This document shows, piece after piece, positions 35,655 to 44,177 of a stretch of DNA of 64,000 bases. The stretch's first letter is position 1. Every line of letters starts with the position of its first letter. The notes beneath the pieces are model-generated. The model had not been told where the DNA came from. It saw only the letters and a list, made by a program, of their open reading frames with translations, and ran no database searches. The stretch comes from Sinomicrobium soli (lineage in GTDB: Bacteria; Bacteroidota; Bacteroidia; Flavobacteriales; Flavobacteriaceae): contig NZ_QLNV01000006.1 in assembly GCF_003285545.1 (NCBI RefSeq), positions 248,001-312,000 on the forward strand, read 5' to 3'. A program made the translations under genes and the position numbers.

Positions 35655-35849
35655 ATGGACAAGAAACTCACATTAAGTCTCGATCAGGCTGTCATTGAAA
35701 AGGCAAAGGTTTATGCCAGGTCGAACAATATAAGTTTGTCAAAGCTTATTGAGTCTTATCTGGCTTCACTGACAAAGCGCACAAAAAGAAAACCGGAAAT
35801 TACACCTCTGGTGGAAAGTTTAAGCGGTGTTATTGATCTGCCGAAATAG
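35655..35849 (+). CDS. DUF6364-family antitoxin-like protein, probably truncated
   Basis: 64 aa. N-terminal ribbon-helix-helix-like start (KKLTLSLDQAVIEKAKVYARS-type, then SLSKLIESYL), as in DUF6364 proteins that pair with PIN-domain toxins. Full members continue for about 20 more residues after the SLSGVI segment; this one stops at DLPK. No PIN gene follows, and the next 600 bp belong to the ilv leader region. Probably a solitary remnant of a toxin-antitoxin pair. An AT-rich promoter region precedes the ATG. Confidence 0.7.
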   Translation: MDKKLTLSLDQAVIEKAKVYARSNNISLSKLIESYLASLTKRTKRKPEITPLVESLSGVIDLPK

Positions 35850-35971
35850 CCAGGCCATCATTCCGGGTGTATACCGGGTTTCATCTGTAACATAATACAC
35901 GATTATTATGATTTTATGACTTAAGGGGAAATAAAATCTGTTTCGGGGCTTGGTAATTGAAAAAACTTTAT

Positions 35972-35979
35972 GATATTTG
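35972..35979 (+). promoter_or_regulatory. Possible -7 element of the ilv operon
   Basis: GATATTTG deviates from TAnnTTTG at the first base only and has a TTG 19 bp upstream. If used, transcription would begin at or very near the first leader ATG (35985), making leader peptide 1 nearly leaderless. Confidence 0.35.
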
Positions 35980-35984
35980 TTCAC

Positions 35985-36044
35985 ATGAAAAGATATTTCA
36001 TACATATTATTACTGTCATTACTGTGGTGATTATATCATCGTAG
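35985..36044 (+). CDS. ilv operon leader peptide 1
   Basis: 19 codons: MKRYFIHIITVITVVIISS. Of the residues, six are Ile and three Val, with two Thr, as expected for a peptide that senses charged tRNA-Ile and tRNA-Val. A strong terminator follows 31 bp after the stop. Directly after the stop GGGAATGG (36047-36054) can pair with CCTTCCC of the terminator's left arm, giving an alternative anti-terminator. Layout is that of a classical ribosome-mediated attenuator. Confidence 0.8.
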   Translation: MKRYFIHIITVITVVIISS

Positions 36045-36075
36045 CAGGGAATGGTATGTATGAAACGATCTGAAG

Positions 36076-36106
36076 AGCCTTCCCTGAAACCGGGAAGGCT
36101 TTTTTT
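36076..36106 (+). terminator. ilv attenuator terminator 1
   Basis: AGCCTTCCC (36076-36084), loop TGAAACC, GGGAAGGCT (36092-36100), then six T (36101-36106). Perfect 9-bp stem. Ends transcription when leader peptide 1 is fully translated. Confidence 0.9.
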
Positions 36107-36126
36107 ATTTCATCTGACCCTTAAAA

Positions 36127-36192
36127 ATGAATATTGTGATAAGGAATACGGTCATTATTATAGTCATCGTCATTAGCCTGTTTCCGGGTTGA
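36127..36192 (+). CDS. ilv operon leader peptide 2
   Basis: 21 codons starting ATG AAT ATT and ending TTT CCG GGT TGA. The peptide begins MNIVIRNTV and continues with the run IIIVIVIS; Ile and Val make up more than half of it. GATACAG (36191-36197), overlapping the stop codon, is exactly complementary to CTGTATC (36223-36229) in the left arm of the following terminator. A ribosome finishing the peptide would cover it (termination); a ribosome stalled on Ile/Val codons would free it (read-through). Confidence 0.82.
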   Translation: MNIVIRNTVIIIVIVISLFPG

Positions 36193-36216
36193 TACAGTGG
36201 TCTTATGCCGTATGCG

Positions 36217-36261
36217 AAGGGCCTGTATCAACCGGATGGTGGATACGGGCCCTTGATTTTT
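36217..36261 (+). terminator. ilv attenuator terminator 2
   Basis: AAGGGCCTGTATC (36217-36229) pairs with GATACGGGCCCTT (36242-36254) over 13 bp (one T-G), followed by GATTTTT. The left arm is shared with the anti-terminator pairing to 36191-36197. From here to ilvD (36262-36447) no further leader or gene is seen. Confidence 0.88.
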
Positions 36262-36447
36262 AAGGCTGTCGTAATTTTTGGATATGATAGTTGAATGCAT
36301 TTTAATATGTTGTAAATCAACAGTGTAATAATTCATGAGGGATGTTGAGTTTAAAGAACGGAATTCATGTTAAAATGCTGGTGATTTTATATAAAATAAT
36401 TTAGCTGTTCGTAAAGTATTGTAGAGAAAACTAATTTTTATTGAAGA

Positions 36448-38121
36448 ATGTTAAATACGTATAGTAGACAAGTTACCCAGGACCCTACCCAGCCCGCAGC
36501 TCAGGCGATGCTCCACGCATTGGGGCTCAGCGATGAAGACCTCAAAAAACCACTGGTAGGCATTGCGAGTACGGGGTATGAGGGCAATCCGTGTAACATG
36601 CACCTTAACAAATTGTCTGAATATGTAAAACAGGGTACTGCGGAAGTTGATCTTATCGGTCTCATTTTTAATACGATCGGGGTGAGCGACGGTATATCGA
36701 TGGGGACGGAAGGAATGCGTTATTCTCTCCCTTCGAGAGATATTATCGCAGATTCTGTCGAAACCGTAGTCAAGGGAATGTGTTATGACGGTGCCGTAAC
36801 CGTAGTGGGATGTGACAAGAATATGCCGGGAGCACTTATGGCTCTTTTAAGAATAAACAGGCCGGCGGTACTGGTCTATGGCGGAACCATCGCTGCAGGA
36901 TGTCACAACGGGAAAAAACTGGATGTAGTTTCTGCTTTTGAAGCCTGGGGCGGAAAGGTGGCCGGAAGCATATCGGAAGAAGAGTATAAAAATGTGATCC
37001 ACAAAGCTTGCCCGGGGGCCGGTGCCTGCGGGGGAATGTATACGGCCAATACCATGGCTTCTGCCATAGAGGCGATGGGGATGGCCATACCGCAGAATTC
37101 CTCTATCCCGGCAGAGAACGACGGCAAGAAGGAAGATTGTATAGCTGCCGGAAAAGCATTGAGACACCTGCTTGAGAAAGATATTAAACCCAGGGACATC
37201 GTTACCAGGAAAGCATTGGAAAATGCTTTTCGCCTGGTTACCGTACTCGGAGGGTCTACCAATGCAGTACTTCATTTTATGGCGATAGCCAAGGCGGCGG
37301 AGATAGAATTCTCCCTGGACGATTTCAGGAGGATCAGTGAAAACACTCCTTTCCTGGCCGACCTGAAACCCAGCGGGAAATACGTCATGGAAGACCTTCA
37401 CAGGGTGGGAGGTATTCCTGCCGTACTGAAATTTATGCTGAAGGAAGGGATGTTACACGGCGACTGTCTTACGGTTACCGGGAAAACGCTGGCAGAAAAT
37501 CTCGAAGCTTTTCCCGATCTGGAAGAAGGGCAGGACATCGTGCGGTCCCTGGACCATCCCATTAAGAAAACGGGACATATCCGCATTCTGTACGGCAATC
37601 TTGCCGAAGAAGGCGCAGTGGCGAAGATCACCGGGAAAGAAGGGCTGAATTTTACCGGGAAAGCCAAGGTGTTTGACGGTGAATTCGAAGCCAACCGGGG
37701 GATAAAGGAAGGTAAGGTACAAAAAGGCGATGTCGTTATCATTCGTTATGAAGGACCGAAAGGAGGCCCGGGAATGCCGGAAATGCTCAAGCCTACTGCC
37801 GCTATTATGGGGGCCGGACTCGGGAAGGAAGTGGCCCTTATTACAGACGGACGCTTTTCGGGAGGGTCGCACGGTTTTGTGGTAGGGCACGTATCTCCGG
37901 AGGCCCAGGACGGCGGAAACATAGCCCTGGTGAAAGACGGGGATGTCATTACCATAGATGCCGAAAAAAATACCATAGAAGTGGAACTTACGGAAGAAGA
38001 ATTAAAAGCGCGAAGGGCCGGATGGCAACAACCTCCGCTGAAACACAAAAAAGGAATATTGTATAAATACGCCAGGACGGTTTCATCTGCATCACAGGGT
38101 TGTGTAACAGACGAATTCTAA
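36448..38121 (+). CDS. ilvD: Dihydroxy-acid dehydratase
   Basis: 557 aa. Dehydrates 2,3-dihydroxy-isovalerate and -methylvalerate to the 2-keto acids of valine and isoleucine. Iron-sulfur cluster cysteines in [16 protein letters not shown] and [17 protein letters not shown]-terminal [20 protein letters not shown]. First structural gene of the ilv operon, 255 bp after leader peptide 2, so its expression is likely controlled by the two attenuators. Start ATG gives [13 protein letters not shown]. Confidence 0.97.
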
Positions 38122-38198: not shown

Positions 38199-39932
38199 AT
38201 GGAAACATTAAAGGAAAGATTAGCAGAAACGGAGACAAAGGCAGCCATAAGAATAAGTGGTGCGGAAGCCGTTATCCGTTGCCTTCTCGAAGAAGGAGTG
38301 GATCTGATTTACGGATACCCCGGAGGTGCCATTATGCCGGTGTATGACGAATTGTTTAAGTTCCAGGACCAGTTGCATCACGTGCTTACCCGCCACGAGC
38401 AGGGTGCTGCACATGCGGCCCAGGGATATGCGAGGGTTACCGGAAGGGTAGGGGTCGCCATGGCAACCTCGGGCCCGGGAGCAACCAACCTGGTTACCGG
38501 TATTGCCGATGCACAGATAGATTCCACCCCCCTGGTGTGTATTACCGGGCAGGTGGCCCGTCACTTGCTGGGAACCGATGCCTTTCAGGAAACCGATATC
38601 ATAGGGATATCGACCCCGGTGACCAAATGGAGTTACCAGGTCACCAGGGCTGCCGATATTCCCAAAGCGCTGGCCAAGGCCTTTTATATAGCACGCTCCG
38701 GACGTCCCGGACCCGTACTGATCGATATTACGAAAAATGCCCAGTTCGAGGAATTTGACTTCTCTTATAAAAAGTGTACCGGTATCCGGAGTTATAAACC
38801 GAAACCGGTGGTAAAACCGGAAAAGGTACAGGAAGCGGCTGCGGTAATTAATGCGGCAAAGAAACCGTTTATTGTGTTCGGACAGGGCGTCATACTGGGC
38901 AGGGCCGAAGCGGAATTAAAAGCCTTTATTGAAAAGACGGGGATTCCGGCTGCCAGTACGGCTCTGGGGCTTTCCGCATTGCCTTCCGATCACGAATTCC
39001 ATACGGGAATGGTCGGGATGCACGGTAATTATGCCCCCAACCTGCTGACCAACGAATGTGATGTCCTTATCGCACTGGGTATGCGTTTTGACGACAGGGT
39101 TACGGGAAACCTGGAAACCTATGCCAGGCAGGCAAAGGTGCTCCATTTCGAGATCGATCCGGCAGAGATCGACAAGAATGTAAAAACCGATGTGGCAGTG
39201 CTGGGTGACCTGAAGGAGACACTCACACAATTATTGCCCCTCCTTGAAGAAAACAGGCATGAATCCTGGCATCAGAAGTTCAAGGATATGCATGCCATAG
39301 AATACGATAAAGTGATCAGGAACGATCTTTTCCCGGAAAAGGAAAAACTCACCATGGGAGAGGTTATAAGACGGATCAATACCAGGACAAACAACAATGC
39401 GGTGATCGTTTCCGATGTGGGACAACACCAGATGATCGCCTGTCGTTATGCCCGGTTCAATCAGACCAAGAGCAATGTAACCTCAGGGGGGCTCGGTACT
39501 ATGGGGTTTGCCCTTCCGGCAGCCATAGGTGCCAAAATGGGAGCAATGGAGAGAGAAGTCGTAGCCATCATAGGCGACGGGGGCTACCAGATGACCATCC
39601 AGGAACTCGGGACCATATTCCAGACGAAAGTCCCGGTAAAGATCGTGGTACTCAACAATGACTTCCTGGGCATGGTGCGCCAGTGGCAACAATTGTTCTT
39701 TGACAAACGCTATGCCTCTACCGAGTTGATAAACCCGGATTTTGTCACCATTGCCAAGGGGTACCATATTCCGGCAAAACGGGTGACCAGAAGGGAAGAT
39801 CTCGACGCAGCCATAGATGAGATGATAGCTTCGGAAGAAGCTTATTTTCTCGAAGTCTGCGTGGAAAAGGAAGACAATGTATTTCCCATGATCCCTACGG
39901 GGGCATCGGTATCCGATTGCAGGCTGGAATAA
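38199..39932 (+). CDS. ilvB: Acetolactate synthase, large subunit
   Basis: 577 aa ThDP enzyme joining two pyruvates, or pyruvate and 2-ketobutyrate, the first common step of Val/Ile synthesis. N-terminal ThDP glutamate in RHEQGAAHAAQGYAR, MATSGPGATN, the FAD-binding middle domain, and ThDP/Mg motif GDGGYQMTIQELGT with the NN of VVLNND. Follows ilvD by 77 bp and is followed by its regulatory subunit gene 36 bp later. ATG at 38199. Confidence 0.97.
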   Translation: METLKERLAETETKAAIRISGAEAVIRCLLEEGVDLIYGYPGGAIMPVYDELFKFQDQLHHVLTRHEQGAAHAAQGYARVTGRVGVAMATSGPGATNLVTGIADAQIDSTPLVCITGQVARHLLGTDAFQETDIIGISTPVTKWSYQVTRAADIPKALAKAFYIARSGRPGPVLIDITKNAQFEEFDFSYKKCTGIRSYKPKPVVKPEKVQEAAAVINAAKKPFIVFGQGVILGRAEAELKAFIEKTGIPAASTALGLSALPSDHEFHTGMVGMHGNYAPNLLTNECDVLIALGMRFDDRVTGNLETYARQAKVLHFEIDPAEIDKNVKTDVAVLGDLKETLTQLLPLLEENRHESWHQKFKDMHAIEYDKVIRNDLFPEKEKLTMGEVIRRINTRTNNNAVIVSDVGQHQMIACRYARFNQTKSNVTSGGLGTMGFALPAAIGAKMGAMEREVVAIIGDGGYQMTIQELGTIFQTKVPVKIVVLNNDFLGMVRQWQQLFFDKRYASTELINPDFVTIAKGYHIPAKRVTRREDLDAAIDEMIASEEAYFLEVCVEKEDNVFPMIPTGASVSDCRLE

Positions 39933-39968: not shown

Positions 39969-40493
39969 ATGAATAATACATATACTGTTTCCATATATTC
40001 GGAAAACAACATAGGCCTGCTGAACCGTATTTCAGCGATCTTTTTGAAACGACATATCAATATAGAGAGCCTTACGGTCTCGGAGTCGGAGATCGAAAAT
40101 GTAAGCCGCTTTGTGATCGTGGCCGATATGAGTGAAGACCAGGTGCGCAAAATAGCGGGACAGCTGGAAAAGCAGATAGAGGTCATCAAGGCCTACTATC
40201 ACACCGATGAGGAAACCATCTATCAGGAGACCGCATTGTTCAAGATAAAGTCAAGCCTGCTGTTTGACGAACGGCAGATACAGAATATCATAAAAAATAG
40301 CAATGCCAATATCGTTACGGTGGCCCGGGAATTTTTTGTCATAGAAAAAACGGGAAGGCGGCACGAAACCGATGCGCTGTACGACGAGCTCGTACCTTTC
40401 GGGATCATGCAGTTTGTCCGCTCGGGCAGGATAGCCGTGTCGAAGAGCGAAATGAACATATCGGCCCTGCTCCGGGAATTTCAGAATGCCTGA
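39969..40493 (+). CDS. ilvN: Acetolactate synthase, small regulatory subunit
   Basis: 174 aa. N-terminal ACT domain (YTVSIYSENNIGLLNRISAIFLKR, then NIESLTVSESE) binding valine for feedback control, followed by the ALS small-subunit C-terminal domain with DERQIQNIIKNSNANIVTVA and the end RSGRIAVSK. Size matches IlvH/IlvN. Binds and activates IlvB. Follows ilvB by 36 bp. Confidence 0.95.
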   Translation: MNNTYTVSIYSENNIGLLNRISAIFLKRHINIESLTVSESEIENVSRFVIVADMSEDQVRKIAGQLEKQIEVIKAYYHTDEETIYQETALFKIKSSLLFDERQIQNIIKNSNANIVTVAREFFVIEKTGRRHETDALYDELVPFGIMQFVRSGRIAVSKSEMNISALLREFQNA

Positions 40494-40575: not shown

Positions 40576-42045
40576 ATGGCAAATTATTTTAACACGCTTC
40601 CGTTGAGGCTTCAGTTACAGCAATTAGGAGTATGTGAATTCATGGACAGCTCCGAATTTGACGAAGGTGTAAAAAAACTTTTAGGTAAAAAGATCGTAAT
40701 TGTAGGATGTGGGGCCCAGGGACTTAACCAGGGGCTCAATATGAGGGATTCCGGCCTGGATATTTCTTATGCCCTTCGTGAAGCAGCCATTAAAGAACAA
40801 CGGCAATCGTATAAAAATGCCACCGGGAACGGTTTTAAGACAGGCACCTATGAGGAGCTTATCCCTACGGCAGATATGGTGTGTAACCTGACCCCGGACA
40901 AACAGCATACTTCGGTGATCAGTACCGTGATGCCCCTGATGAAAAAAGGAGCTACACTGTCTTATTCGCACGGGTTCAACATCGTGGAAGAGGGCATGCA
41001 GATCCGTGAAGATATCACCGTGATCATGGTAGCCCCGAAATGTCCCGGTTCTGAGGTAAGGGAAGAGTACAAACGCGGATTCGGGGTTCCTACCCTTATT
41101 GCGGTTCATCCCGAGAACGACCCGAACGGGGACGGACTGGAACAGGCCAAGGCTTATGCTGCAGCTACCGGCGGGCACCGGGCCGGGGTATTGCGCTCTT
41201 CTTTTGTAGCGGAAGTGAAGTCTGACCTTATGGGAGAACAGACCATTCTGTGCGGACTGCTGCAAACAGGGTCTATCCTGAGCTTCGATAAAATGGTGGA
41301 AAAAGGTATCGAGCCCGGATATGCGGCCAAGCTGATACAATACGGATGGGAAACCATCACCGAGGCCTTGAAACACGGGGGGATCACCAATATGATGGAC
41401 CGCTTGTCCAATCCCGCCAAGATAGAAGCCTTTCGCCTTTCGGAAGAGTTGAAAGATATTATGCGCCCGCTGTTCCAGAAGCATATGGACGATATCATGA
41501 GCGGTCATTTTTCCAAAACTATGATGGAGGACTGGGCCAATGATGATAAAAATCTCCTGACCTGGAGAAAGGCCACCGGGGAAACGGCTTTTGAAAAGAC
41601 GGAAATCACCTCAGACCCTATTCCGGAACAGGAATATTTCGATTGTGGCGTACTGATGGTAGCCTTTGTAAAATCAGGTGTGGAGCTGGCTTTTGAGACC
41701 ATGACCGAAGCCGGGATCATTGCAGAATCGGCGTATTACGAATCGCTGCATGAAACACCGCTTATAGCCAATACCATTGCCAGGAAAAAACTCTATGAGA
41801 TGAACAGGGTCATTTCGGATACGGCGGAGTACGGGTGCTATCTCTTCGATCATGCCTGTAAGCCCCTGCTGGGAGACTTTATGAAAAAGATAGATACCGA
41901 CGTGATCGGAACATCTTTCGGTACGGATAATACCGTAGATAACCGGGAACTCATACAGGTCAACGACCAGATAAGGAAACACCCGGTAGAGAAAGTCGGG
42001 GCGTATTTGCGTGCGTCGATGACCGAGATGAAGAAAATAGTTTAA
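40576..42045 (+). CDS. ilvC: Ketol-acid reductoisomerase (class II, long form)
   Basis: 489 aa, the long class II form as in E. coli (491 aa) with a duplicated knotted domain. Isomerises and reduces acetolactate with [24 protein letters not shown] dinucleotide loop (about 41-59), [17 protein letters not shown] giving Arg/Ser for NADPH preference, [11 protein letters not shown], and [11 protein letters not shown] with the Mg-binding acids. Preceded by an AT-rich 82-bp gap after ilvN. Confidence 0.97.
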
Positions 42046-42136
42046 TTTCACGATTGCAACTAAGACCATTACCCCGGGGAGTGTTCCGGGGTATTGGTTT
42101 TCAGCCGGACCACTTCGTTTGAACAAGGAACAAAAG

Positions 42137-42874
42137 ATGAACAGAGAATCTGCGAAACAGGATTTCAGCCATAAGTCGACCAACGAAGAGATAAGATCGC
42201 GTTTCGACAAGGATGTGGAACGTTTTTCCAACCTGGACACCGGTCAGAAATCGACCATAGATGCACCGGTTTCCCTGGAGCTCATTACCGGGGCGGCAAA
42301 AGCGGTGAACCCGGAAGCCACCGATCTCCTCGATATCGGATGCGGAGCGGGTAATTATACCCTTAAAATGCTTTCCAGGATACCGGACCTGAACTGTAGT
42401 CTCGTAGACCTTTCGTTACCCATGCTCCGCAGGGCAGAGGAACGCATCAGGCCGAATACCGGCGGACGTATAGAAACTTTTTACGGGGATATCCGGGATG
42501 CCCGCTTTTCAGACGGGCAGTTCGATATTGTCCTTGCGGGAGCCGTAATGCACCATCTGAGGGATGATAGCGACTGGGAGAGCGTCTTTGAAAAGGTGTA
42601 TCGTATTTTAAAACCCGGAGGAAGTTTCTGGATATCAGACCTTGTTGCACACGATTCGGGAAAAATACACACCTTTTTCTGGAAAGAATACGGCAGGTAC
42701 CTGGAACAGATAGGCGGGGCTGATTACAGGCAGAATGTATTTGAGTATATCGAAAAGGAAGATTCGCCGAGATCGGTGACCTACCAGATGGAATTATTGC
42801 GAAAAACAGGATTCGGCGAAGTAGAAATTTTACATAAAAACGGCTGTTTTGCTGCTTTTGGGGCCATTAAGTGA
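42137..42874 (+). CDS. Class I SAM-dependent methyltransferase inside the ilv operon
   Basis: 245 aa from ATG 42137 (a TTG at 42119 is possible but less likely). SAM loop LLDIGCGAGNYTLKML, acidic SLVDLSLPM, DIVLAGAVMHHL and LKPGGSFWISD are typical of UbiE/COQ5-like class I enzymes. Substrate unknown. It sits between ilvC (91 bp) and ilvA (13 bp) on the same strand; its tight spacing with ilvA suggests co-expression with branched-chain amino acid synthesis, but no known pathway step needs a methyltransferase. Confidence 0.85.
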   Translation: MNRESAKQDFSHKSTNEEIRSRFDKDVERFSNLDTGQKSTIDAPVSLELITGAAKAVNPEATDLLDIGCGAGNYTLKMLSRIPDLNCSLVDLSLPMLRRAEERIRPNTGGRIETFYGDIRDARFSDGQFDIVLAGAVMHHLRDDSDWESVFEKVYRILKPGGSFWISDLVAHDSGKIHTFFWKEYGRYLEQIGGADYRQNVFEYIEKEDSPRSVTYQMELLRKTGFGEVEILHKNGCFAAFGAIK

Positions 42875-42887
42875 CCCAAGGCAGTAA

Positions 42888-44177
42888 ATGACAAGCCGAA
42901 AACAGAAAAGATTTATGGACGTGACTACGAAATATATACCTGAGATAAAACAGGTAAAGGAAGCTGCAGAAACTTTAAAAGGAGTGGCCGTACGCACACC
43001 TCTTGCTCCCAGTATGACCTATTCGGGGGCATTCGGCGCCAATGTACTCCTGAAACGGGAAGATCTCCAGGTGGTCAGGTCATATAAGATCAGGGGGGCA
43101 TATAATAAGATCAGGTCTCTTTCCGGTGATGAAAAGGCCCGCGGAATTGTCTGTGCCAGTGCGGGAAATCACGCCCAGGGGGTGGCGATGTCCTGTAACA
43201 AGCTGGGCATAAAGGGAACCATCTATATGCCCGTGCCTACGCCGAAACAAAAGATCAGCCAGGTAAAAATGTTCGGAGGGGACCAGATCGATATCGTACT
43301 GGAAGGCGATACGTTCGACGACTCCAACAAGGCGGCCCTGGCGGAATGCCGCAAACAGGGAAAAACTTTTGTACATCCTTTCGACGATGAAAAAGTGATC
43401 GAAGGACAGGCCACCGTGGGGCTTGAGATCCTGGAACAGGCCGATACTCCCATCGACTATCTGTTCGTACCCGTAGGAGGGGGCGGACTGGCTTCCGGGT
43501 TGTCGGCGGTATTCAACGCCCTTTCACCTCAGACCAGGATTATCGGGGTAGAGCCCGAAGGGGCCCCCTCCATGAGCAGGTCTATCGAGAACAACCGCAA
43601 TACCGAACTGGACCGTATAGAAAAGTTTGTCGACGGTGCCGCAGTGAAAAGGGTAGGCGACAAGACCTTTGAAATATGCAGGCAGTTTCTTCACGATGTC
43701 ATCACCGTTCCCGAAGGAAAAGTCTGCCAGACTATCCTGGACCTTTACAACAAGGATGCCATAGTGGTAGAGCCTGCGGGTGCCCTTACGATCTCAGCCC
43801 TGGATTTTTACCGCGATACCATAAAGGATAAGACGGTGGTATGCGTGGTAAGCGGGAGCAATAACGATATTACCCGTACGGCCGAGATCAAGGAAAGGGC
43901 CCTGTTATATGCCAATCTCAAACATTACTTTATTGTGCGTTTTCCACAGAGGGCAGGGGCACTCAAGGAATTTGTGGCCGAGATACTCGGGCCCAATGAC
44001 GATATTACCCATTTCCAGTATACCAAGAAACACAGCCGGGAAAATGCCCCCGCAGTGGTAGGTATCGAGCTCAAAAGTGAGGCCGATCTGGAGCCTCTTA
44101 TCGAACGTATGAAGGAACACCACTTTTATGGAGATTATCTCAATAACAAACCGGACCTGTTCCAATTCCTGGTGTAA
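42888..44177 (+). CDS. ilvA: Threonine ammonia-lyase (threonine deaminase), biosynthetic
   Basis: 429 aa fold type II PLP enzyme making 2-ketobutyrate from threonine, the entry to isoleucine. PLP lysine in VRSYKIRGAYNK, SAGNHAQGVA, GGGGLASGL phosphate loop, and a C-terminal ACT-like domain (LKHYFIVRFPQRAGALKEF) for feedback control, single-copy rather than the double domain of E. coli IlvA. An ATG at 42915 (MDVTTKYIPEI) is an equally likely start. Last recognisable Ile/Val gene of the operon. Confidence 0.94.
   Translation: MTSRKQKRFMDVTTKYIPEIKQVKEAAETLKGVAVRTPLAPSMTYSGAFGANVLLKREDLQVVRSYKIRGAYNKIRSLSGDEKARGIVCASAGNHAQGVAMSCNKLGIKGTIYMPVPTPKQKISQVKMFGGDQIDIVLEGDTFDDSNKAALAECRKQGKTFVHPFDDEKVIEGQATVGLEILEQADTPIDYLFVPVGGGGLASGLSAVFNALSPQTRIIGVEPEGAPSMSRSIENNRNTELDRIEKFVDGAAVKRVGDKTFEICRQFLHDVITVPEGKVCQTILDLYNKDAIVVEPAGALTISALDFYRDTIKDKTVVCVVSGSNNDITRTAEIKERALLYANLKHYFIVRFPQRAGALKEFVAEILGPNDDITHFQYTKKHSRENAPAVVGIELKSEADLEPLIERMKEHHFYGDYLNNKPDLFQFLV

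Follow-up and report, generated by a model that had tools for sequence, protein, structure and literature searches.

The ilv genes of the analysed window (the whole stretch of DNA under study, 64,000 nt from Sinomicrobium soli) are preceded by two consecutive leader modules. We read these, with a probability of roughly 0.85, as a pair of complete ribosome-mediated attenuators of transcription that follow each other on one transcript and would sense the supply of Ile and Val. The sequence and its comparison with relatives reveal Ile/Val-rich leader frames, predicted terminators, antiterminators and local hairpins, a promoter-like box in front of first leaders only, and a fixed order of the modules.

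The leader region in the window

The leader region is arranged in the order protein-isoaspartate methyltransferase gene, DUF6364 gene, leader 1, leader 2 and ilvD. The genes next to the leaders are:

35655-35849, + strand: small DUF6364 gene (Pfam PF19891), co-directional with and upstream of the ilv leader
36448-38121, + strand: ilvD, dihydroxy-acid dehydratase (NCBIfam TIGR00110)
38199-39932, + strand: ilvB, acetolactate synthase large subunit (NCBIfam TIGR00118)
39969-40493, + strand: ilvN, acetolactate synthase small subunit (NCBIfam TIGR00119; Pfam ALS_ss_C)
40576-42045, + strand: ilvC, ketol-acid reductoisomerase (NCBIfam NF003557)
42119-42874, + strand: class I methyltransferase-like gene between ilvC and ilvA, under every NCBIfam cut-off among the 25 shown
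42888-44177, + strand: ilvA, threonine ammonia-lyase (NCBIfam NF006390)

The DUF6364 family is presumably antitoxin-like; no second small gene was found between this gene and the ilv leader. The closest named IlvD relatives among the matches listed belong to Sinomicrobium weinanense (86%) and S. oceani (85%). A second IlvD-like dehydratase with 45% identity lies elsewhere in the genome (L002, G000:C12:56594-58222).

Both modules consist of the same elements:

35985-36044, + strand: leader peptide 1 (module A), MKRYFIHIITVITVVIISS and stop, 19 codons
36026-36040, + strand: local hairpin A, GGTGA/TCATC, over the last Ile codons (covariation; window pairing by eye)
36046-36056, + strand: antiterminator left arm A, AGGGAATGGTA, pairing with 36076-36084 with one bulged U
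36072-36106, + strand: terminator A, hairpin 36072-36104 and 7-T run 36100-36106 (folding, terminator scan, covariation)
36127-36192, + strand: leader peptide 2 (module B), MNIVIRNTVIIIVIVISLFPG and stop, 21 codons
36175-36190, + strand: local hairpin B, AGCCTG/CGGGTT, abutting the antiterminator arm (covariation; window pairing by eye)
36186-36197, + strand: antiterminator left arm B, GGGTTGATACAG, pairing with 36223-36233 in 11 contiguous pairs
36217-36261, + strand: terminator B, hairpin 36217-36254 and interrupted T-run with T's at 36257-36261 (folding, covariation)

A reading of this DNA from its sequence alone had described two Ile/Val-rich frames of 19 and 21 codons before ilvD, and both withstood closer analysis. 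ATG-initiated ORFs that are 12-40 aa long and contain 9 or more Ile/Val within 12 residues occur at only these two sites on both strands of the 64 kb; dinucleotide shuffles of 35900-36300 produced at least one such ORF in 1 of 2000 cases and two in none of 2000. A chance origin of the ORF pair is excluded. An in-frame ATG at 35970, upstream of the start at 35985, lengthens ORF 1.

The same reading had placed a strong hairpin with a T-run behind each leader. The hairpins were confirmed by folding z-scores of -7.7 (terminator region A) and -4.4 (B), with 0 of 200 shuffles as stable in either case, and the T-run of A was found as described. The T's 3' of the terminator B stem are broken up (TTGATTTTT), and a strict terminator scan gave no entry for B; terminator B of the window may be weakened by this interruption.

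The modules in related genomes

We compared 144 distinct ilvD loci, comprising 80 ilvD upstream regions from named genomes (the best 80 of at least 567 matches) and those of further relatives. The latter gave 79 matching places, of which 30 entered as loci and 40 were fetched; nine were left out (two lie at contig ends, two match only in part and five come from 0.6-Mb genomes), and L124, cut by a contig end, was dropped. Five loci identical to others were removed (L032, L033, L055, L079, L101), after which all upstream regions differed; one near-copy pair remains (L070, L073). Module A was defined by the arm GGGAATGG or a close variant and a CCTTCC...GGAAGG terminator (CCTTCCC pairing), module B by the arm TGATACAG and a CTGTATC...GATACAG terminator. 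Covariance models R1 and R2 were trained on 35 of 42 A modules (alignment A1) and 31 of 31 B modules (alignment A2), respectively; seven A modules whose ORF overran the arm or which looked odd were kept from A1. For each place the best module on the ilvD strand was counted, and opposite-strand and weaker cross-model matches were removed. The models match their training rows by construction; they also detected module B of L006 and the Tenacibaculum and Gelidibacter tandems before ilvE, all outside the training sets.

With these models, 26 loci carried A-B, seven A-A, 36 A alone, 30 B alone and 45 neither, the last count being an upper bound with fewer than 1,300 bases upstream in 16 of the 45. 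Module A stood first in 26/26 A-B loci. Conservation of both peptides in relatives, which the sequence-only reading had proposed as a check, was thus found in these 26 loci, including 6/6 genus genomes searched (the window's own and five others, two of them equal to the named Sinomicrobium records). Within the genus, the DNA just upstream of module A hardly aligns, whereas module A itself aligns throughout. The A-only class contains five weak rows of 34-44 bits (L038, L132, L142, L149, L150), and one B-only row, L037 (47 bits), is without a leader ORF. Two places about 1.1 kb before ilvD (L146 and L147; R1 45.9 and 44.9 bits) were excluded, and the similarly distant L100 and L140 included.

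Six A-A loci are labelled Aquimarina (L046, L052, L066, L083, L098, L110) and one is a Bacteroidia MAG (L105). Both of their modules score best with model A, and their terminators are of the TCCCTTT and CCCTTC types; the A-A arrangement would represent a rebuilt or strongly diverged tandem.

Elsewhere in the own genome, no further module was detected among the candidates scored (150 of 2941 first-look candidates for R1, 150 of 1888 for R2): the next best matches had E 0.0038 (R1) and E 0.0175 (R2), and an Ile/Val leader was absent at six R1 places (L153-L158, of which L155 is also the next best match of R2).

Both terminators covary. In terminator A 96.4% of the cells are paired, with a covariation of 0.237 versus 0.136 in shuffles (reached by 0/500); the values for terminator B are 99.7% and 0.303 versus 0.175 (0/500). 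Antiterminator B is paired in 87.2% of cells (slid controls up to 36.9%) with a covariation of 0.221 versus 0.174 (0/500), and antiterminator A in 83.5% (slid controls up to 64.2%), both counts being biased because predicted complementarity was among the criteria for choosing the modules of A1 and A2. Support for antiterminator A rests on pairing above the slid controls, because its covariation is weak (0.146 versus 0.137, reached by 74/500 shuffles).

The local hairpins, which played no part in module picking, lie over or next to both the antiterminator arm and the final control codons. Covariation was 0.652 versus 0.326 in shuffles for hairpin B (31 rows of A2; 0/500; best slid control 0.184) and a moderate 0.313 versus 0.208 for hairpin A (35 rows of A1; 0/500). 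Pairs with changes on both sides are not clearly above shuffles, their count being reached by 467/500 for B and 155/500 for A. Leaders of the trp type contain a comparable 1:2 hairpin. The local hairpins might also serve to pause the polymerase.

The segment at or just after each stop codon that had been proposed to pair with the left arm of the terminator was recovered here and agrees with nascent folding, for which we assumed that a ribosome covers 14 nt from the first base of the A-site codon. Antiterminator A of the window is predicted to form 7-9 pairs with the ribosome up to codon 17 (the last Ile), 3 at codon 18 and none at codons 19-20; for antiterminator B the predicted count stays at 11 as far as codon 16 (the last Ile), drops to 8 and then 5, and is zero from codon 19 onwards. 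Across relatives, 60/76 A and 43/55 B modules are predicted to form an antiterminator while the ribosome occupies the last Ile/Val codon and to lack it when the ribosome is at the stop codon, the full on/off pattern being missing in 16 and 12, respectively. The genus itself contains exceptions: in L003 the antiterminator of module B never forms, and in L006 that of module A persists at the stop codon. When the whole terminator RNA was folded, the minimum-energy structure contained the terminator wherever the ribosome was placed in A, and in B with the exception of one position. Because the terminator, once complete, gives the more stable structure, the antiterminator must act kinetically, during growth of the RNA. 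In ribosome-free RNA the antiterminator forms in 39/76 A and 12/55 B modules; a consistent contrast between A and B without a ribosome is present in the window and was not conserved in relatives.

The window shares with leader-peptide attenuators a short ORF rich in control codons, biosynthetic genes downstream (ilvD, ilvB, ilvN, ilvC, ilvA) and a terminator after each leader. An exclusive antiterminator governed by ribosome position is predicted, with weak covariation in A and with the terminator prevailing in the completed RNA.

In the 76 A and 55 B leaders (the 56th B place, L037, having no leader and being excluded), Ile makes up 33% and 30%, Val 14% and 16% and Leu 5% of residues, a composition biased by the threshold of at least 4 Ile/Val in 12 that was set for these ORFs. 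The likely signals are therefore Ile and Val rather than Leu. Within the A-B loci the two leaders, for which the sequence-only reading had suggested possibly different Ile/Val thresholds, carry similar loads (on average 6.6 Ile with 2.7 Val in A and 6.5 Ile with 2.5 Val in B). Val is encoded by GTC at 170 of 350 positions in the leaders of 131 modules versus 10.8% in ilvD genes; this bias could come from tRNA choice or from RNA pairing.

Promoters, history and competing explanations

Promoter-like elements lie on both sides of the tandem:

35950-35979, + strand: likely promoter P1, TTG 35950-35952, 19 nt, GATATTTG 35972-35979 (one mismatch to TAnnTTTG)
36275-36404, + strand: block before ilvD, conserved in the genus, with motifs also in relatives lacking a detected attenuator
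36275-36289, + strand: block motif TTTTTGGATATGATA
36345-36356, + strand: block motif TTGAGTTTAAAG
36368-36377, + strand: block motif TGTTAAAATG
36397-36404, + strand: candidate P2 box TAATTTAG (one mismatch to TAnnTTTG)

In P1 the TTG at 35950-35952 corresponds to the -33 element of the consensus. The box ends 5 nt from the ATG of leader 1, and the predicted transcription start at about 35984 lies 1 nt before this ATG. A possible -7 element at the first ATG had been noted from the sequence alone, correctly, and relatives have a comparable box at this place: when one mismatch is allowed, TAnnTTTG is most frequent at 16-17 and 12-13 nt upstream of first leaders, with up to 22 occurrences at one position (best of 200 shuffles, 8). 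A pattern set after these peaks were seen (TAnnWTTG, AATATTTG or TATATTTG, ending 3-10 nt before the leader, and not covering the window box GATATTTG) was found before 64/98 first leaders, namely 43/69 A-first and 21/29 B-first (shuffle means 1.4 and 0.6), and missed 26 and 8. Before second leaders it was found in 0/33. All promoter and block-motif shuffles preserve base counts only.

Because the box stands before first leaders only, both attenuators most likely lie in series on one transcript. From the most frequent spacings, a 5' UTR of 4-6 nt is predicted for A-first and of 0-1 nt for B-first leaders, and the first leader would be leaderless or nearly so. Transcript mapping in F. psychrophilum located the sigma-A box at -12 to -5 and reported a leaderless share of only 5.5% among mapped mRNAs (PMC9723704).

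The conserved block and the second promoter-like box between terminator B and ilvD extend the sequence-only reading. In the 144 loci, the block motifs TTGAA[TC]AT[GC], TTGA[AG]TTTA[AG] and TGTTAAAA were present in 32, 26 and 41 loci (shuffles 1.3, 0.8 and 4.3), and 46 occurrences of TAnnTTTG begin 51-70 nt upstream of the gene. The final 230 nt before ilvD in relatives contain TTGAATATG, TTGAATTTAA and TGTTAAAA motifs with and without attenuators. A CTG..CAG palindrome is weakly enriched in some loci (21/144 versus 11.4 in shuffles). The block is likely to comprise a second promoter and an operator. Such a second, unattenuated promoter may provide basal expression that bypasses both attenuators; if it is real, attenuation sets the P1 share of expression only.

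Taken further, the block and its box, as a DNA operator or other cis element, could be the main control, with the attenuators merely trimming the transcript from upstream. We regard this as possible, if rather unlikely. TAnnTTTG is present in the 210 nt before ilvD in 71/144 loci against a mean of 25.8 in shuffles, and it is found in 43 of the 99 module-bearing loci and in 28 of the 45 others; such control would leave the conserved tandem and the tandem's own promoter box unexplained, and the window box TAATTTAG carries a mismatch.

The strength of the terminators bears on whether both modules are functional. Terminator B exceeds terminator A in stability in the 26 A-B loci (median -19.3 versus -16.1 kcal/mol; paired difference -3.55, p 7e-5). 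We had considered that A terminators might be weaker in tandem loci and found the opposite, with a median of -16.05 (n=26) versus -13.3 in A-only loci (n=33 with a hairpin of 36; p 0.008).

A quick tree of 125 IlvD proteins was built, in which 20 of the 39 short loci from L112 onwards were included and the other 19 are absent. A-B rows are spread across its deep branches, and one of them belongs to the 13 most distant rows. On this tree the module states, five in number, require 38 changes versus a mean of 72 in 200 shuffles, and 44 of its 122 inner branches are open. Because a single order occurs in 26/26 loci and each module is recognisably homologous, we favour an old A-B tandem from which one module would have been lost repeatedly; the tree leaves room for repeated assembly.

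A single module suffices in many relatives, and one of the two in the window could likewise be a decaying remnant heading for the single-module state, with the other alone functional. The 36 A-only and 30 B-only loci and the many state changes required by the tree speak for such decay; retention of both modules in every genus genome searched and the more stable A terminators of tandem loci speak against it, and we judge it improbable.

Outside the surveyed loci, a class-wide draw of 395 genomes, scored at low sensitivity, gave tallies of at least 18 and at least 20 genomes with matches, which are lower bounds because ten candidates were scored per genome. Adjacent same-strand pairs of matches were present in G000, G419 and G394, of the same family, and in G481 and G314, of two other Bacteroidia families. 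Among 11 places fetched from this draw, L184-L187 read as two Ile/Val leaders, each with its own hairpin, those of L184 being less dense (5 and 6 Ile/Val in 12, with Leu also present). An ilvE-like gene follows in L184, L186 and L187, and L185 ends at the contig end; a tandem also precedes an ilvE-like aminotransferase gene where ilvE stands before ilvD (Tenacibaculum, Gelidibacter and some others), the identity of ilvE being assigned by family for L187 only and elsewhere by likeness. Another Flavobacteriaceae genome, G248, has three model-A matches on three contigs (C12:105245, C23:497079, C1:1040890; E 7.4e-8 to 3.0e-5), and attenuators of the module-A type may serve several operons there.

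A long structured leader ahead of an amino-acid operon could also be a T-box, a riboswitch or another Rfam-type element. This is very improbable: in the leader (35900-36460, E up to 1) no T-box, riboswitch linked to branched-chain amino acids or other Rfam 15 family reached its gathering score, and in the whole window only a tRNA outside the leader did so. Below the threshold, the best matches are again to families of leader peptides, Phe_leader (38.3 bits, E 7.5e-5) and Thr_leader (33.5 bits, E 1.8e-4), both to module A only and both under the gathering score of 55 bits, and the codon content and paired alternatives fit leader attenuators. The same scan of 12 relatives, in which an Rfam element was again sought and rejected, gave just a tRNA and one Flavo-1 RNA. 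The latter (Rfam RF01705) lies downstream of ilvD in an Aquimarina genome (L098, 6543-6644).

That terminator A just ends the transcript of the co-directional DUF6364 gene, with ORF 1 arising by chance, has next to no probability, given the 1 in 2000 shuffles with such an ORF and a module A conserved in relatives and aligning throughout the genus.

Proposed mechanism and known systems

For two attenuators in series we propose the following course. Transcription would start from P1, on the first AUG or a few bases away from it, and a ribosome would translate leader 1. When Ile- or Val-tRNA is short, the ribosome would stall on the Ile/Val codons and leave GGGAAUGG free; free GGGAAUGG would capture the left arm of terminator A while the right arm is still to be transcribed, and the polymerase would read on. 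At good supply the ribosome would reach the stop codon and cover the antiterminator arm, allowing terminator A to form. Polymerases that pass A would meet the independently translated leader 2, where the test would be repeated with the stronger terminator B. The fraction of polymerases reaching the ilv genes would then be roughly the two read-through probabilities multiplied, and the response would be steeper and deeper than with a single attenuator. We infer termination, stalling, the amino-acid response and the multiplication of decisions from the arrangement of the elements. The balance tips slightly towards a more extended picture, in which a same-signal two-stage switch with an essentially leaderless first leader and multiplied termination would be ultrasensitive, and in which the A-then-B order would be old in Flavobacteriaceae and lost one module at a time in many lineages, with similar tandems in other Bacteroidia families.

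On this reading, bacteria distant from the enterobacterial models would stack two complete ribosome-sensing attenuators before one operon and keep or drop them in a fixed order. What is gained from a second attenuator for the same signal (dynamic range, steepness or noise) becomes a testable question, for which relatives offer natural single- and double-module pairs as well as predicted leaderless or nearly leaderless starts of the first leader. The covariance models can annotate leaders that Rfam 15 does not recognise in the window or the 12 relatives.

The enterobacterial ilvGMEDA (ilvL), ilvBN (ivbL), trp, his and thr operons have one attenuator each, and in the ilvL and ivbL leaders Leu codons also serve as signals. 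The window resembles them in its leaders rich in control codons, terminators, predicted exclusive antiterminators and downstream biosynthetic operon; it differs in having two modules, a Leu content of about 5% and a first leader predicted to be leaderless or nearly so.

Tandem T-boxes take two decisions in one leader. Tandem riboswitches have been described for metE (PMC3641672) and as a Boolean-logic pair (cited in PMC8632094). The series layout is shared with these systems, which sense a metabolite or tRNA by RNA, without a translating ribosome. Two leader peptides also precede ermB, according to the account in PMC8274638, where they mediate translational attenuation induced by erythromycin rather than amino-acid-sensing termination of transcription.

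In the same family as the window, transcript mapping of F. psychrophilum gave 'strong clues' for leader-peptide attenuation before amino-acid operons (PMC9723704); the sections of that report consulted here describe no tandem. In the open-access literature we found no tandem ribosome-mediated attenuator with the same signal in both parts. The tandem attenuators of Salmonella mgtCBR, with two short ORFs, respond to ATP and proline and were called a singular example by their authors, who contrast this leader with that of metE, which has two intrinsic terminators (PMC3641672). Compared with mgtCBR as described there, the window carries the same control codons in both modules and a predicted intrinsic terminator for each. 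Leader-peptide attenuation as such is known; a series of two for the same signal, as the sequence suggests, would be new.
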